Shown: piece after piece, positions 53,914 to 61,601 of the stretch | Layout: the number at the start of each line of letters is the position of its first letter | How positions within the stretch are numbered: position 1 is the stretch's first letter | DNA from: Candidatus Hydrogenedentota bacterium | Lineage (GTDB): Bacteria; Hydrogenedentota; Hydrogenedentia; Hydrogenedentales; SLHB01 | Assembly: GCA_029552745.1 (NCBI GenBank) | Contig: JAKPDK010000042.1 | Location: forward strand, 62,001 to 126,000 | Direction: 5' to 3' | DNA: 64,000 nt | Made by a program: the position numbers and the translations under genes | The notes under the pieces: model-generated | What the model was told of the DNA's origin: nothing | Database searches by the model: none | Seen by the model: only the letters and a program-made list of their open reading frames with translations

Positions 53914-54993
53914 ATGTTCGTTTTCGGAAGTTATCCTAAAGATGCCAAATTGTGCGCCGATATTGAGAAAACACTCAGACTTTTTCAAAATAAAGCTGAG
54001 ACTGTCGTTCCAAAGGCACTTCCAATTTCTGCCTATAATCAGCGCTATTTATCCGAACACTTGTCGAGACTATTTAGCCTGATGAAGAGAATCGGCTTCT
54101 TCTTGGCATGGGTTATTAGAGACTTTCAACGCCCTTACAAGGATTTAGTTCTTGTCGAGTACGGCGCCGGCACGGGATTACCATGTTGTGTGGCAAAACT
54201 TTTGGGTATTGGAACCGTTATCTACAGCGACCACTTCGCGCCTTCGTGCGAAGACGCAAAAGCCATTCACCACGCCTTCGGCACCGAGGCGGACGCTTAT
54301 GTATGCGGTGAGTTAGAAGAAGTCATTGAATACTTAAAATCAAAACAACTCGCCTGTGATGCGCTGATCTCCAGTGATTGTATCGAACACATATTTGATG
54401 TGGATAAATTCTTGATGCTACATAAGAACATACCTGGGAACCGTCTCACAGTGGCACACAGTTCCGGGGCAAATAGCAAAAATCCCTTTCGTGTTAGACA
54501 GCTTAAAAAGTACCACATCCAGCGAGAGTACCTGGGATTTCAGGTCAAAGAGGGACATAAACCCACCGAACTTGGAGAATCGTATCTCGAGGTGAGGAGG
54601 CGCCTGATTCGCGAATATGCACCTGACCTCTCGGTCGATATAATTGATAAGCTGGCAACTCACACGCGAGGCATGCGCAAGGAAGACATCTATGCCGCCG
54701 TGGATACCTTCCGGAAGATGGCAACCCTCCCGCCGCTACCCGCCCATCCGACCAACACGTGCGACCCGCTGAATGGGAACTGGGCGGAACACCTCCTTGA
54801 TTTCGACCATCTTGTGGATGTGATGAACGCTGCGGGATTTTCTGCGCAAATCGTGCCCGGCTACTATGCAGGCACAACCCCGTTACGCCGGTTGGTGCTA
54901 CCTATGCTGAACCTGGCGATTCGTGCCGCCGGTCCTTGGGGGATCCATTTGGGGCATTTTTTCATGCTCTATGGCCAGCGCAAGATCGACTAA
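53914..54993 (+). CDS. SAM-dependent class I methyltransferase-like protein
   Basis: 359 residues. Motif I VLVEYGAGTGLPCCVAKLLG and a following acidic strand YSDHFAPS mark a Rossmann methyltransferase. CDALISSDCIEHIFDVDKFL is the motif IV-like region. The C-terminal 180 residues are unlike small-molecule methyltransferases I know. TGGAGG lies 7 nt before the ATG. Its place among surface-polysaccharide genes suggests a sugar-modifying role (inferred). Confidence 0.72.
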   Translation: MFVFGSYPKDAKLCADIEKTLRLFQNKAETVVPKALPISAYNQRYLSEHLSRLFSLMKRIGFFLAWVIRDFQRPYKDLVLVEYGAGTGLPCCVAKLLGIGTVIYSDHFAPSCEDAKAIHHAFGTEADAYVCGELEEVIEYLKSKQLACDALISSDCIEHIFDVDKFLMLHKNIPGNRLTVAHSSGANSKNPFRVRQLKKYHIQREYLGFQVKEGHKPTELGESYLEVRRRLIREYAPDLSVDIIDKLATHTRGMRKEDIYAAVDTFRKMATLPPLPAHPTNTCDPLNGNWAEHLLDFDHLVDVMNAAGFSAQIVPGYYAGTTPLRRLVLPMLNLAIRAAGPWGIHLGHFFMLYGQRKID

Positions 54994-55576
54994 GAGCGTT
55001 GTCTGCATCTCGACTCTGTAAGCTTCACGACAAAAAGACCTCTTGCCTCTACGAGCCGTCTGAACGGCGTAGAATCCGATCCTTTCGAGAAAGAAATGCC
55101 CCCGCGTCTTGAACAGTAAAGGGCTTGACAAGGACTAAACACGGGGTTGTTCTTGGAGGGACGCCGTTCATGCCGCTCTTGTGCAGCGCCCCCTAGCATT
55201 GCGAGGAGTGCGGAAGGCACGACGTCCTCTTGCGCTACAACCTGAGGTTGTCATTGCGGGGAGCCATCCCCCCGCATCCGGAGGGATTTTCACCACAGAG
55301 GACACGGAGAACACAGAGTTTGAGCCATCCCCCCCGCATCCGGAGGAACAAACGGAGGCATAGATAGATCAAATCTACCTATGACACTACGCGTCAGCGT
55401 CTTTCTCCTAATAACTTTCATGGAGAACCCACTTTTTAATTCCGCATACAACATAACAAAAAGTGCGAAACGTATTGGACCTGTACAGTACATTTATTCT
55501 GACGGTTTCTTTTTGATAATATGACCATCGGCTGTGGTACTGAACCCCCAAACGACATTATCTGTTGGATCTCTTT
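54994..55576. repeat. Gene-free stretch with interspersed repeat copy R6 (minus orientation)
   Basis: On the minus strand the outer motif TGTACAGGT, five bases, ACGTTTCGCAC lies at 55487-55463. A leader module with a frame reading MLYAELKSGFSMKVIRRK follows, then two CCGGATGCGGGGG units (complements at about 55272 and 55332). Between those units is a CACAGAGGACACGGAGAAC-type repeat. Arm fragments sit near 55195-55220 and 55249. The small hairpin here is GTGC...GCAC. No gene is credible. Confidence 0.6.
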
Positions 55577-56695
55577 ATGAAGGTACTTGTTGTCATCGGT
55601 ACGCGTCCGGAAGCGATAAAGATGGCGCCGGTCGTGTGCGAATTGTTACGTAGGTCAAAGCGCTTCGAGGTCAACGTATGTCTCACCGCACAACACCGCG
55701 AACTATTAGACCAGGTGATCGAAACGTTTTCACTGCCTGTCGCGTTTGACCTCGACCTGATGAAACCGAATCAGACTATCTTCGATGTGACCAGCACGGT
55801 GCTCCTCGGGATGCGTGGCGTGTTGGAACAGACGCGTCCGGATGCGGTTTTGGTTCATGGCGACACGACGACATCGTTTGCCGCGGCGCTGGCGGCGTAT
55901 TACACCCAAACGGCGGTGGGTCATGTGGAAGCGGGTTTGCGCACGTACGACAAGTTCCGGCCTTTTCCGGAGGAAATGAACCGCCGACTGGGAGATGCCC
56001 TCTCCGACTATCACTATGCGCCAACCCCCTTGGCACGGGAAAACCTCTTACAAGAACGTATCCCTCCCGACCACATCGTGGTGACAGGTAACACCGTAAT
56101 CGATGCGTTGCTCGAAGTGGCATCGCGCCCTTACACCTTCGCGGAGCCCTTGTTACAAGAGCTCGGAACGCAACGCCGGCTGATTCTGGTTACGGCACAT
56201 CGTCGCGAGAGTTTTGGGGAACCGTTTCGAGAGATGTGCCGAGCCATGCGGGATCTCGCCCGTGCCAATCCGGACGTAGAAATCCTCTACCCCGTGCACC
56301 CCAACCCCAACGTGCGGCGGGTCACCTCGGAAATCTTAGAGGGAGAGGAACGGATTCATTTGATCGAGCCTTTGCCTTATGTGCCGTTTGTGCATCTCTT
56401 GAAAAAGTCGTTTCTCGTTCTGACAGACTCGGGGGGTATCCAGGAAGAGGCGCCGTCCCTAGGGAAGCCTGTCTTGGTCATGCGTGAAGTGACGGAACGT
56501 CCCGAGGCAATTGCCGCCGGCACCGCAAAACTTGTAGGCAACCGATACGATGGAATCGTCGAATCCGTACAACTTCTGTTGGATGACCCTCAGGCGTATG
56601 CTGCCATGGCAAATGCTGTAAATCCATATGGAGACGGGCGAGCGGCACAACGCATCGCCGATCATTTGGAACAACTTGGGGAGAATAAGAGATGA
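55577..56695 (+). CDS. wecB: UDP-N-acetylglucosamine 2-epimerase (non-hydrolysing)
   Basis: 372 residues. Interconverts UDP-GlcNAc and UDP-ManNAc. VVIGTRPEAIKMAPVVCELLRR, VHGDTTTSFAAALAAYY, GHVEAGLRTYDKFRPFPEEMNRRL, VTAHRRESFG and LTDSGGIQEEAPSLGKPVLVMREVTERPEAI are all intact. ATG 55577 is used; a TTG four codons upstream lacks support. It feeds WecC, whose ATG overlaps its stop by 4 nt. Confidence 0.96.
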   Translation: MKVLVVIGTRPEAIKMAPVVCELLRRSKRFEVNVCLTAQHRELLDQVIETFSLPVAFDLDLMKPNQTIFDVTSTVLLGMRGVLEQTRPDAVLVHGDTTTSFAAALAAYYTQTAVGHVEAGLRTYDKFRPFPEEMNRRLGDALSDYHYAPTPLARENLLQERIPPDHIVVTGNTVIDALLEVASRPYTFAEPLLQELGTQRRLILVTAHRRESFGEPFREMCRAMRDLARANPDVEILYPVHPNPNVRRVTSEILEGEERIHLIEPLPYVPFVHLLKKSFLVLTDSGGIQEEAPSLGKPVLVMREVTERPEAIAAGTAKLVGNRYDGIVESVQLLLDDPQAYAAMANAVNPYGDGRAAQRIADHLEQLGENKR

Positions 56696-57954
56696 AAAAC
56701 GTTTGTGTGATGGGACTGGGGTACATCGGACTGCCGACGGCGAGTGTGCTGGCGTCGAACGGGTTTCAGGTGCTCGGTGTCGACGTCAGCCCGCGGGTAG
56801 TGGATACCGTAAATTCAGGAAATATCCACATTGAAGAACCCGGGTTGCGTACGGTGGTGGCTGCCGCCATTGGGTCGGGGCACTTGCGGGCAGCGCTTAA
56901 GCCGGAAAAATCAGATGTGTTCATTATCGCCGTGCCCACACCGCTCACAAAAGATAAGCGCGCGGATATGTCTTACGTGGTTCAAGCGACAGAACAGATC
57001 GTTCCCTTCTTAAGTCCTGGATGCCTCGTCATATTGGAGAGCACGTCGCCGCCGGGTACATGCCGCGATCTTCTCAAACCCATTTTGGAAAAATCAGGAC
57101 TGAACGTTGGCAGTGACATTTATTTGGCGCACTGCCCGGAACGCGTGCTCCCGGGGCGTATCCTCACGGAATTGATTCAAAACGATCGAGTCATCGGAGG
57201 CATCGAACCTATCAGCGCTCAACGTGCAAAAGATGTCTACGCAACGTTTGTCGAAGGAGAAATTTTTCTGACCGATGCAACCACGGCGGAAATGGTCAAG
57301 ATCATCGAGAACACGTTTCGGGACGTTAACATCGCATTTGCGAATGAAACCGCCTTGTTATGCGAAAAACTGGGTATAAATTTCGCGGAGGTGGCGAGGC
57401 TTGCGAACCGTCACCCTCGGGTCAATATCCACCGAGCCGGGCCCGGAGTTGGAGGACATTGTATCTCGGTCGACCCATGGTTCTTGGTGGAAAAGTTTCC
57501 AGATGACGCGAAAATCATTCATTTGGCACGACAACGTAACGATGCCATGCCCCATCATGTGACAAATACCCTCAACGACATGCTGGAGGGTATTCAAGAT
57601 CCGAAGGTGGCTATACTCGGAGTAGCTTTCAAAGGAAACGTGGACGATATCCGCGAAAGCCCTGCCTTGGAAATCATTCACCAACTAAATCAGCAAGGGG
57701 TGCGGGTTGCCGCCCATGACCCGTATGTCAAACACGCACCAATCGAATTGGTCACGCTAGACGCGTGTTTTGCTGACGCGGATTGCGTTGTCCTCGTTAC
57801 AGACCACTCGGACTACCTTTATCTAAACCCCCAGCAAGTCGGACGCACCATGCGCCGTCGCAACCTGTTCGATACTCGGGCGTTCCTACCTCATGACCAA
57901 TGGAGGAATGCGGGTTTCCGAGTACGAGTGCTCGGCGCCGGAGAACCCCGGTAG
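56692..57954 (+). CDS. wecC: UDP-N-acetyl-D-mannosamine dehydrogenase
   Basis: 420 residues. Oxidises UDP-ManNAc to UDP-ManNAcA with NAD. VMGLGYIGLPTASVLASNGFQVLGVD is the NAD site and ESTSPPGTCRDLL a family motif. GGHCISVDPWFLVEKF holds the catalytic Cys. FKGNVDDIRESPALEIIHQL starts the C-terminal domain. A UDP-ManNAcA supply implies an aminouronate in the surface glycan, which also fits the acidic-sugar porin and glycosidase elsewhere in the window. Confidence 0.95.
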   Translation: MKNVCVMGLGYIGLPTASVLASNGFQVLGVDVSPRVVDTVNSGNIHIEEPGLRTVVAAAIGSGHLRAALKPEKSDVFIIAVPTPLTKDKRADMSYVVQATEQIVPFLSPGCLVILESTSPPGTCRDLLKPILEKSGLNVGSDIYLAHCPERVLPGRILTELIQNDRVIGGIEPISAQRAKDVYATFVEGEIFLTDATTAEMVKIIENTFRDVNIAFANETALLCEKLGINFAEVARLANRHPRVNIHRAGPGVGGHCISVDPWFLVEKFPDDAKIIHLARQRNDAMPHHVTNTLNDMLEGIQDPKVAILGVAFKGNVDDIRESPALEIIHQLNQQGVRVAAHDPYVKHAPIELVTLDACFADADCVVLVTDHSDYLYLNPQQVGRTMRRRNLFDTRAFLPHDQWRNAGFRVRVLGAGEPR

Positions 57955-58092: not shown

Positions 58093-59739
58093 ATGCGTTT
58101 GACCGACATTCTTTTTCCCGGCGGTGTCCTGACACGTCTTACCGCCGCAGACCGTTCCGGTGCGGTGGCTGCATTGCTTTATGCTTTGGCACGGTACAAA
58201 TCCATCGACGTGGAAAAAGCCATGCACGATGTAGAGTCACGGGAGGAAAAGGGCACAACACTTATTCCTGTTGGTGAACACCACATCGCCATCCCACATG
58301 CCTCAACGACGGCATGTAAGCAACTTATGATGGCGATCGGCATATCGCGTGAGGGCATTCCCTGGGACGCCACCGGACGAAAAGCCAACCTGATTGTTCT
58401 CTTTTTGGCCCCGCCGGAACTACAGACCGCATACCTGCGCGCCTTAAGTCGTATCGCGCGCTTGTTTCATGGAAAATCTTTCTTGCGCGACGTTTTGCAC
58501 GTCGCCACACCGGAAGAACTGCTCCGTCTCTTCCGCGCCGCAGAAACTCCCCTAGGAGATTTGAGCGGCGGCACGCAGGATATGCCGGAGTTCTGCGTGA
58601 TTGGGGCGCAGTCTAGTGGGTTGGCGCTAGCGGGACACCTTGCCTTGACGGGGTATAAAGTGACGCTGTGCGATGTTACTCCCGAGTTGATTACCCCCAT
58701 CCAAGCCAGGGGCGGCTTATACCTGCGGGGAGAGATTGACGGGCTCGCCACCCTATCTACCATAACATGCACACCGGCGGAAGCCCTCGAAAACGCCGAC
58801 ATCGTCTTTCTTACCGTCCCACGGCAACTCTCCCGTGAAATGGCAGAACGCGTAGCGCCCGATATCAAGGATGGCCAGATCGTCGTCCTTCAAGACGCCG
58901 GAATATTTGGGGCTTGGGAAGTCGCGCGTACCTTCAAAACCGTCAACCCGACAGCAAGACCGTACCTTGTTGAAATGCAGACTTCTCTATTCGCAGCGCA
59001 CCGCTTAGACCCTGCCCAGGTTTACATCTCCCAAGTAAGGAACTTCGTCCCGTTTGCCACGTTGCCCAGCTATCACGTGTCCGATGTGGCTCCCGTGCTC
59101 CGAAAAGCACTGCCTCAGATTGTGCCCACAGAAAATGTGCTCCAATTGGAGCTGGAAAACGTTGGCGGCTTGCTCCGTCCGGCAATGTTCCTGCTCAACT
59201 TGATACAGTTGGAAAACTCCACCGATGTTTTGAAGGCGCTCTCAGACGACGTGACGCCTGCCTTGACACGCATCCTGGAAAAAGTAGACCAAGAACGCTG
59301 CTCGGTTGCCGCCGCGCTCGGATTGCGACTATGTCCGGCAAAAGAATGGCTCCAGCCATGGTGCGATACCCCCCCAGACAGTCTTCGAGGGATGATGCAG
59401 GCGATAACACGGAGTTGGGTCATTCCCAATTCCCCGAACCCTTCTCACCGGTGTATCGCCGAAGACGTCGCCCATGTCCTGGTGCCGTTGGCGTCTGTGG
59501 GCGCAACCCTGGGTATAGCCACGCCAATGATAAACGCCCTCATTGAAATCGCCTCAACCGTTTATGCCCAACAGTACGATGTTGATGGAAGAACTGCTGA
59601 AAAACTAGGTATCAAGGACATGAACCCTCAAGAGCTGCTTTCCCTAGTGAACGGTTCAGACTCTTTGAACGAACCGGCAACCAACGGAGAAAAAGATTCT
59701 AATCTCCCTCCTTCTTCATCATCCCCTAAAAAACAGTAA
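58093..59739 (+). CDS. Fusion of PTS EIIA (fructose/nitrogen type) and opine-dehydrogenase-like domain
   Basis: 548 residues. Residues 1-150 are a PTS EIIA-2 domain: EKAMHDVESREEKGTTLIPVGEHHIAIPHA, phospho-site His69, and LIVLFLAPPELQTAYLRALSRIARLF. Residues 165-510 are a dinucleotide-binding dehydrogenase of the octopine/nopaline class: FCVIGAQSSGLALAGHLALTGYKVTLCD, ENADIVFLTVPRQLSREMA, and a helical C-domain with ENVGGLLRPAMFLLNLIQLEN. Opine dehydrogenases usually have His-Pro where this has Arg362-Pro. The tail is Ser-rich. ATG 58093 follows GGGAGAG. No other PTS protein is nearby. A phospho-controlled oxidoreductase or sensor is a fair inference. Confidence 0.75.
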   Translation: MRLTDILFPGGVLTRLTAADRSGAVAALLYALARYKSIDVEKAMHDVESREEKGTTLIPVGEHHIAIPHASTTACKQLMMAIGISREGIPWDATGRKANLIVLFLAPPELQTAYLRALSRIARLFHGKSFLRDVLHVATPEELLRLFRAAETPLGDLSGGTQDMPEFCVIGAQSSGLALAGHLALTGYKVTLCDVTPELITPIQARGGLYLRGEIDGLATLSTITCTPAEALENADIVFLTVPRQLSREMAERVAPDIKDGQIVVLQDAGIFGAWEVARTFKTVNPTARPYLVEMQTSLFAAHRLDPAQVYISQVRNFVPFATLPSYHVSDVAPVLRKALPQIVPTENVLQLELENVGGLLRPAMFLLNLIQLENSTDVLKALSDDVTPALTRILEKVDQERCSVAAALGLRLCPAKEWLQPWCDTPPDSLRGMMQAITRSWVIPNSPNPSHRCIAEDVAHVLVPLASVGATLGIATPMINALIEIASTVYAQQYDVDGRTAEKLGIKDMNPQELLSLVNGSDSLNEPATNGEKDSNLPPSSSSPKKQ

Positions 59740-59787: not shown

Positions 59788-61518
59788 TCAGCTTGCAGCA
59801 CGACCCACCCCTTCCACTCGGTCAGGCAACAAAGGTAGGTCAGCCCCCACAACTCGATTCCATACAACTCGAATAACGTTGACCAATGTGATGGTGTCAT
59901 AAGGTTCCCCACTCGGAACAGACGGACAAGTGTCAGGAAAACGCATCGAAATCAGATTGGCGGTTTCAACGGCGCTCGACGTGCCCCCTTCAGGATTGCG
60001 TAGCCCCTGCGAAGAAACAAGGATGACCACAGCAGGACGCGTGGATTCCTGAACCAGCGTCTTAGCAATACGGAGAAGACGCCTGTTGGTAAAGGTGATT
60101 TGCTCCGCATATGCGGCAACGAAATCCCGTGCTGTTCCGCGATAAACCTCTTCATCTCCATGCCGCGAATCACCGTAGGGGACAGCGCGTTCTCCCACTG
60201 ACGTGAACAAAAACGGCAACGAGGGAATCGGAAAATGGGCGTATACCAACTGGGGTTGTTCTGACGGTGACTTTGCCAGTCTGGGGATTTCATCCATCAC
60301 GTGGAGAATCCGCGCACGTCGCGGTTCAAACCGCCAATAAATCGGGTTTTGATACCGCCAAGCATAAAACCCATTCAAAATGCTACCCACGACTGTCTGT
60401 TCTAGAAGCGCTGTCTCGAACTCCGTCGGAACGGTTTCTAATTTAATAACGGTGTCAACTTGCTCCGAAAGCCCCTCACAGTCCAACTCCGATGACCCCG
60501 CGACAATACGATATCCTGCGTCCCGAAAGAGTTGGAAAAGACGGTTGTCCCGACAAAGACGATAATAGGCTGCAGCATTCCACGAGGCGCTAATTGGTGC
60601 CGGCAAATAATCGAAATTTAGAAAAGCGGCAAGAGAAGCGTTCGCATCCGCATAGTTAGCCAAGCTCTGGGAAGCCGTGACGAAACCCAGTTCCCCCATT
60701 TCCGACTCAAACAACAAATTGTTATAACCGAGCCGCTCACGCAAAACGTCTCCACGCGGATAGCCATCCAAAACCAACACATAGACATCCGGATAGGGAC
60801 CCTTTATTGCATCACTCCGTGACACGGGCAACCGAGGAAGGGAAAAAGCTTCACGCTGCGGCCTGTTATAAAAGATAAAAACACAGTACAATCCAACCAA
60901 TAACAGGCAGAACCAATTCACGGCAATACTGAACTTTTGCAGATTTCCTTGCAAACGCACCAGGGAGAAAATGACCACGCCCGCAAAGACTACATACAAC
61001 GAAGTGACCGCCGCCTCGCCGGCACTTGCTTCCCCACCAACCAAAAACAGTGCTGCCAACATCGGCAAGACAAGAATGCCCCAAGACAATATCGGACGGA
61101 ATCGCCCGAATAGAGGTCGTTCTTTCCCCCTCATTCGCCGGACAAGCAAAAACAGGAGCACAAGAACGGCGTAAGCCGCTACAATCAAAGGTACGGTGAC
61201 AATGTCCAGCAGGGGACGGAGAATGCGCAGGATACTGTTCAAAACTCCCCACCCGGGTACCAAGGTTACAAACGTGGCTGAAGCCACCAAGCCACCTTTG
61301 TGCAGCGCCCGAAACATCACCGAAAACAGAACCCACAGGAAACAGGAAATTATGATAAGAGTGAAAAGAGGCCGCGACAGTGTGGATGGCTGAACAACGC
61401 CGAGATTACCTGCATAAAGAACCAGCACAGGATAAATGGCGAACAGGATTGGATGGATGATCACCACCGGATGAGCCGACGGCGGCAACAATCCACGTTT
61501 CCCTTTCCCGATTTCCAC
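59788..61518 (-). CDS. Membrane-bound sulfatase/phosphatase-superfamily protein
   Basis: About 576 residues. The first ~215 carry several membrane helices. Then an alkaline-phosphatase-superfamily domain begins: YPDVYVLVLDGYPRGDVLRERLGYNN (metal Asp) and TASQSLANYADANASLAAFLN, with a Ser/Thr-rich nucleophile zone. PAVVILVSSQGLRN is in the place of the usual SDHG, so the metal site may be changed. It resembles LTA-synthase or phosphoethanolamine-transferase relatives. GTG 61518 has TGGAG 8 nt upstream; GTG 61527 is the alternative. Its job on surface glycans is inferred from its neighbours. Confidence 0.65.
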   Translation of the reverse strand: MEIGKGKRGLLPPSAHPVVIIHPILFAIYPVLVLYAGNLGVVQPSTLSRPLFTLIIISCFLWVLFSVMFRALHKGGLVASATFVTLVPGWGVLNSILRILRPLLDIVTVPLIVAAYAVLVLLFLLVRRMRGKERPLFGRFRPILSWGILVLPMLAALFLVGGEASAGEAAVTSLYVVFAGVVIFSLVRLQGNLQKFSIAVNWFCLLLVGLYCVFIFYNRPQREAFSLPRLPVSRSDAIKGPYPDVYVLVLDGYPRGDVLRERLGYNNLLFESEMGELGFVTASQSLANYADANASLAAFLNFDYLPAPISASWNAAAYYRLCRDNRLFQLFRDAGYRIVAGSSELDCEGLSEQVDTVIKLETVPTEFETALLEQTVVGSILNGFYAWRYQNPIYWRFEPRRARILHVMDEIPRLAKSPSEQPQLVYAHFPIPSLPFLFTSVGERAVPYGDSRHGDEEVYRGTARDFVAAYAEQITFTNRRLLRIAKTLVQESTRPAVVILVSSQGLRNPEGGTSSAVETANLISMRFPDTCPSVPSGEPYDTITLVNVIRVVWNRVVGADLPLLPDRVEGVGRAAS

Positions 61519-61601
61519 CTGATCCACTCCAGATTAACTGCAAAAACCCAACCACACACCCCTCATAATGTCCCCATTTTCCCACCTAATTGTCAAGCAC
61601 A

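Follow-up and report, generated by a model that had tools for sequence, protein, structure and literature searches.

A PTS EIIA domain fused to an opine-dehydrogenase-like protein with changed active-site positions in a Hydrogenedentota bacterium

In the window, a 64,000-nucleotide stretch of a Candidatus Hydrogenedentota genome, a single gene encodes a PTS EIIA domain followed by the two-domain body of an opine dehydrogenase. The fusion protein, P0001, is real, not an artefact of reading frame or assembly, because a second genome encodes a protein of the same architecture, P0002, which aligns with it end to end through the linker. Four otherwise invariant positions of the dehydrogenase half, including the catalytic histidine, have been changed in P0001, and, as judged from these substitutions, this half has most likely lost catalysis. 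We tentatively favor the idea, at slightly less than an even chance, that P0001 is a PTS-switched sensor or regulator built from a dead dehydrogenase, serving as an output module of a regulatory PTS that seems to have no transport function. What appears to be new here is the joining of an EIIA output domain to a new partner, and the apparent discarding of the enzyme in P0001. No paper naming both domains together was found in a literature search that covered only a minority of subscription journals.

Architecture and distribution of the fusion

P0001 is encoded by an uninterrupted open reading frame with an ATG start (Table 1). The first-pass annotation, made from the DNA letters, had claimed an EIIA/opine-dehydrogenase fusion and proposed a domain search, which bore the claim out: PTS_EIIA_2 and Octopine_DH (PF02317; residues 346-490, 98 bits against a cut-off of 30) were both found in the single frame above their Pfam cut-offs, with weaker Rossmann-type Pfam matches between them. 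Using phmmer, the best solved relative was N-(1-D-carboxylethyl)-L-norvaline dehydrogenase (CENDH; 1bg6), with an E-value of 9e-42 across residues 166-513, and the EIIA part matched PtsN-type structures weakly (E ~1e-6 to 1e-5). The AlphaFold model of P0001 has a mean pLDDT of 89, a pTM of 0.69 and two confident domains, and its body was superposed on 1bg6 by Foldseek with a TM-score of 0.92 by target length and an rmsd of 2.3. Its Octopine_DH domain and two-domain fold place P0001 by descent in the opine dehydrogenase family. Codon-usage correlation could not tell the true frame of the gene from shifted frames and was given no weight.

The EIIA phospho-site that had been proposed, His69, was verified in its position and in its motif, AIPHAST. 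Just before this residue, P0001 carries a three-residue insertion, which is missing from all 31 EIIA domains aligned with it and could impair phospho-transfer. A second EIIA histidine, which in carbohydrate EIIA participates in transfer to EIIB (PMC13104625), is Tyr in P0001. The aligned zinc-ribbon, exchanger and HTH types have Tyr or Gln at this position, and most stand-alone EIIA domains have His. P0001 scored 39.4 bits against the PtsN equivalog TIGR01419 (NCBIfam), for which the cut-off is 138.7, and it was also below the curated FruA cut-off. It is therefore an EIIA of this superfamily and not PtsN proper.

Table 1. Positions of the fusion gene, its parts and related loci. Locations without a locus label are positions in the window.
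Feature	Location	Strand	Evidence or remark
EIIA-opine dehydrogenase fusion gene P0001, 548 aa	58093-59739	+	Single ORF, Pfam, AlphaFold
PTS EIIA type 2 domain, residues 15-148	58135-58536	+	Pfam PF00359, 68 bits against a cut-off of 27
His69 codon, presumed phosphorylation site (AIPHAST)	58297-58299	+	Alignment of the motif to 31 further EIIA domains
Flexible linker, residues 153-161	58549-58575	+	AlphaFold pLDDT <50, predicted disordered
Opine-dehydrogenase body (residues 166-513), a Rossmann half followed by a helical half	58588-59631	+	phmmer, Foldseek against 1bg6
Gln173, for invariant second Gly of GxGxxG (CENDH Gly13)	58609-58611	+	Gly in 52/52 others
Ala269, for invariant Gly of NPG (NAD) loop (CENDH Gly110)	58897-58899	+	Gly in 52/52 others
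His303, for invariant Arg (CENDH Arg143)	58999-59001	+	Arg in 52/52 others
Arg362 (GLLRPAM), for invariant catalytic His (CENDH His202)	59176-59178	+	His in 52/52 others
Disordered Ser/Pro/Lys-rich tail, residues 525-548	59665-59736	+	AlphaFold pLDDT <50
UDP-GlcNAc 2-epimerase (wecB type)	55565-56695	+	Upstream; Pfam Epimerase_2, 390 bits
Nucleotide-sugar dehydrogenase (wecC type)	56692-57954	+	Upstream; Pfam UDPG_MGDP_dh, three domains
P0002, EIIA-opine dehydrogenase fusion, 533 aa (genome G241)	L070:3135-4736		All catalytic residues kept
Dehydrogenase/B12-binding gene loci, several phyla	L070:3135-6406; L069:7071-9994; L071:6203-9933; L072:5377-8993; L073:5418-9039; L074:7341-10167		
Host HprK/HPr/EI and EIIA loci	L097:8036-11219; L090:9744-10921; L092:7422-10170; L093:8456-10159; L091:16347-17279; L094:11407-12078		
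Host EIIA adjoining an ATP-synthase D-type (V-type ATPase) gene			In a V-type ATPase gene run
Host EIIA standing alone			
Host EIIA with CBS domains			Next to a citrate-type transporter
Host EIIA fused to Na/H exchanger			
Host EIIA with zinc ribbon			
Host EIIA with HTH domain			

Among 68 genomes of the class, no genome other than that of the host encodes a fusion of this type; unfused related dehydrogenases (E <1e-30) occur in four class genomes, all with the catalytic His. A PF02317 survey of 386 genomes recovered one further fusion, P0002, in genome G241 of another phylum, with 34% identity to P0001 across 525 aa. Absence from all relatives, which had been named beforehand as evidence against a genuine fusion, thus holds within the class and not beyond it. 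No match at E 1e-60 was present in the 16 other genomes of the G241 phylum. In a 400-genome survey around genome G127, homologues at E ≤1e-40 were found in 58 genomes; the EIIA half was unmatched in all 58, and the homologues examined were without EIIA. Surveys of two further phyla, represented by one and two genomes, contributed little. The dehydrogenase loci examined included no split form, in which separate genes for EIIA and the dehydrogenase would be neighbors. The search of viral contigs returned nothing, and that of genome contigs only a short EIIA fragment. The plasmid matches listed were unfused dehydrogenases, with the exception of one from Ensifer sp. PDNC004 (H35; plasmid NZ_CP070352.1:1505167-1506453), an unannotated match to P0002 (query 86-531, 25%). 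The Ensifer match extends into the EIIA half and could represent another N-terminally extended dehydrogenase.

In a tree of the dehydrogenase half, P0001 grouped with its own class (support 86/89) on a long branch of 2.3-3.0 changes per column. A constraint that places P0001 and P0002 in one clade was not rejected for the dehydrogenase half (p 0.30) or for the EIIA half (p 0.32). The trees of the two halves are compatible with a single as well as a double origin of the fusion.

Invariant positions in the dehydrogenase body

The body of P0001 was aligned with 52 other sequences, consisting of 51 homologues from the examined genomes and the CENDH chain. Eight columns were identical in all 52 of these. 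P0001 retains four of the eight, namely a single Rossmann Gly together with the counterparts of CENDH Glu240, Arg292 and Glu296, and changes the other four (Table 1). As a result of the first change, its dinucleotide motif reads GAQSSG and departs from GxGxxG. Arg362 occupies the position of CENDH His202 and octopine dehydrogenase His212, so that the catalytic His is missing; the annotated replacement of this His by Arg362 was thus correct, and three more invariant positions were found to have changed with it. We take His202 and Asp297 to be the catalytic pair of CENDH. The substrate-side residues Arg453, Glu457 and Asp458, which are equivalent to CENDH Arg292, Glu296 and Asp297, are retained in P0001, including both the Asp of the His-Asp relay (Asp458) and the substrate-side Arg (Arg453). 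Octopine dehydrogenase uses a His-Asp relay together with an Arg sensor (PMC2924402). Overall, P0001 matches 50 of the 72 strongly conserved columns of the alignment.

The first-pass annotation had described the body as a complete two-domain dehydrogenase, which is true of the fold but not of the active site. On sequence grounds, the pattern resembles that of a pseudoenzyme, which would have lost the cofactor side and the proton relay but still have its fold and some of the substrate side. It is possible that the retained Arg453, Glu457 and Asp458 could support some residual activity.

The PTS of the host and the B12-binding partner of intact homologues

The host genome assembly is 4.36 Mb in 188 contigs and is 99.7% complete. 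It encodes a single EI and a single HPr, side by side on contig C106 and preceded by HprK, in one cassette. The earlier observation that no EI or HPr gene lies nearby therefore applies to the neighborhood of P0001 but not to the genome, in which a check for these proteins had been recommended. The host EI consists of the three standard domains only, with no GAF domain. The PF02378 EIIC profile had no match in the host genome, in a search that was limited to this profile. Besides P0001, the host encodes at least six EIIA proteins, making at least seven in all (Table 1). Because PF02378 EIIC was not found and at least six EIIA proteins have non-sugar outputs, the system looks like a regulatory PTS, and P0001 seems to belong to it as one of many outputs. 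In the related genome G002, an EIIA is fused to a DisA-type diadenylate cyclase (DAC) domain (L021:1495-2841), which suggests that the PTS and c-di-AMP are linked.

A gene for a B12-binding-domain protein of ~545 aa adjoins the genes of almost all close homologues with an intact active site, among them P0002, and a D-Ala-D-Ala-ligase-type ATP-grasp gene is found near this pair in several loci. One of the B12-binding proteins had a weak match, just below the cut-off, to methylaspartate mutase E. We found no paper describing the dehydrogenase/B12-binding/ATP-grasp gene set, which may represent an undescribed B12-dependent amino-acid pathway. The host genome contained no match, at E 1e-10, to a B12-binding protein like P0003. 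P0001 is therefore cut off from the working setting of its relatives, which is consistent with a change of role.

Function of P0001 and alternative explanations

Several of these observations led us to prefer a PTS-switched sensor or regulator: four invariant positions have changed while the fold and the stop-free frame remain intact; the EIIA motif is kept, EI, HPr and HprK are encoded together, and PF02378 EIIC was not found; at least six other host EIIA proteins are linked to outputs unrelated to sugar; Tyr stands in place of the second EIIA His, which would pass phosphate to EIIB; and the B12-binding partner is missing from the host genome. According to this proposal, the EIIA domain would receive phosphate at His69 from the host EI/HPr pair, and its phosphorylation would report the PEP/pyruvate or nutrient state. 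The body, in which catalysis appears to have been lost, NAD binding has probably been lost as well, and the fold and part of the substrate-side residues are kept, would now offer a surface for binding a ligand or a protein. Phosphorylation of EIIA might then alter which molecules the body binds, or which ones the entire protein inhibits. In this way we infer phosphorylation of the EIIA half, a dead body and a regulatory role for P0001. It is conceivable, although doubtful, that a regulatory PTS with no sugar transport captured an opine dehydrogenase which in one lineage is active beside a B12-linked pathway, and which here has become a dead metabolite- or protein-binding receptor with an output governed by EIIA phosphorylation.

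EIIA proteins are known to act on GlmS (PMC5024086) and the YcgO antiporter (PMC11808508) by contact that depends on phosphorylation, and the principle of an EIIA switch thus has precedent. P0001 would share with these cases the proposed principle that the phosphorylation state of EIIA alters another protein. In contrast to GlmS and YcgO, which are a separate, active enzyme and transporter, the presumed target or sensor in P0001 is covalently attached and apparently dead. EIIA targets are usually separate proteins that are contacted, and are hence hard to find, whereas P0001 would carry its target, or the relic of one, within the same chain.

P0001 was also compared with its closest known counterparts. 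It shares the two-domain fold of CENDH across residues 166-513 but is fused to EIIA, and the CENDH residues His202, Gly13, Gly110 and Arg143 are replaced in it. With PtsN (EIIANtr) and other type-2 EIIA proteins (PF00359), P0001 has in common the EIIA fold and the His motif, as well as a PTS that has EI and HPr and in which no PF02378 permease was found. It differs from them in scoring below the PtsN cut-off, in the fused dehydrogenase body and in the three-residue insertion before His69; the setting differs also, as the host has HprK and its EI is without a GAF domain. The EIIA-Na/H exchanger, EIIA-zinc ribbon, HTH-EIIA, EIIA-CBS and EIIA-DAC proteins of the host and its relatives resemble P0001 in joining EIIA to a non-sugar output. 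However, their output modules are other ones, and none (0) has a dehydrogenase. The host PTS, seemingly without a PF02378 permease, would feed at least seven EIIA proteins, with ion transport, transcription and other outputs among them. P0002 has the same domain order as P0001, and the identity between the two proteins includes the linker, but it keeps its catalytic residues, lies beside a B12-binding gene and comes from another phylum. The intact and dead fusions together offer a direct route to the study of EIIA gating of an oxidoreductase and of the change from enzyme to regulator.

Two ideas had been put forward for P0001 at the outset, a phosphorylation-gated oxidoreductase and a dead enzyme used as a sensor. 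The second is favored over the first, because the dinucleotide motif, the NAD loop, the invariant Arg and the catalytic His have all changed. An active, phosphorylation-gated oxidoreductase would require altered chemistry, in which Arg362 or another residue replaces the His and the substrate or the cofactor has changed, and we consider it unlikely. The whole fold and the equivalents of CENDH Arg292, Glu296, Asp297 and Glu240 are kept, and P0002 retains all catalytic residues, so that the ancestor may plausibly have been an EIIA-gated enzyme, an idea that appears viable for P0002 itself. In P0001, however, the Gly of the dinucleotide motif and that of the NAD loop have changed along with the catalytic His, which places both cofactor binding and proton transfer in doubt, and the host lacks the pathway's B12-binding partner.

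Retention of the fold despite loss of the active site would also be expected if P0001 were a scaffold, in which EIIA oligomerizes and the dehydrogenase fold provides a dimer or docking surface, for example for the wecB and wecC enzymes. The gene for P0001 begins 138 bases after the end of the wecC-type gene, on the same strand. A pure scaffold would have no need of the substrate-side residues Arg453, Glu457 and Asp458, which are nonetheless kept, and we regard this explanation, too, as improbable.

A gene that drifts without present function after loss of its pathway is less probable still. The long branch, the loss of catalytic residues and of the partner gene, and the lack of the fusion in the rest of the class are what decay would predict. 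When random change of 0.1 per site was simulated, ~5 stops arose in the P0001 frame and 0 copies were left intact, yet the 548 codons of the gene contain no stop; plain decay is therefore unlikely. In addition, both domains are still predicted by AlphaFold to fold with high confidence, and 50 of the 72 strongly conserved columns are kept. Least probable by far is an artefact of frame error or misassembly: the genus is represented by one genome and its assembly is in 188 contigs, but no frameshift is needed to join the halves, the contig is 325 kb long, the two halves and the neighboring genes have similar GC content at the codon positions, and P0002, from an independent genome, aligns through the linker.

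The wecBC neighbors named in the first-pass annotation were confirmed by Pfam, with wecB- and wecC-type genes directly upstream of P0001. That the target of P0001 might lie in nucleotide-sugar or envelope synthesis is only a guess from this location. Downstream and convergent with P0001, a reading frame at window 59788-61527 (-) encodes a 579-aa protein with hydrophobic stretches that had no Pfam match at E 0.001. Upstream of wecB, a 359-aa protein encoded at window 53914-54993 (+) likewise had no Pfam match at E 0.001; its sequence VEYGAGTGLPCCVAKLLG resembles, by eye, a methyltransferase motif.
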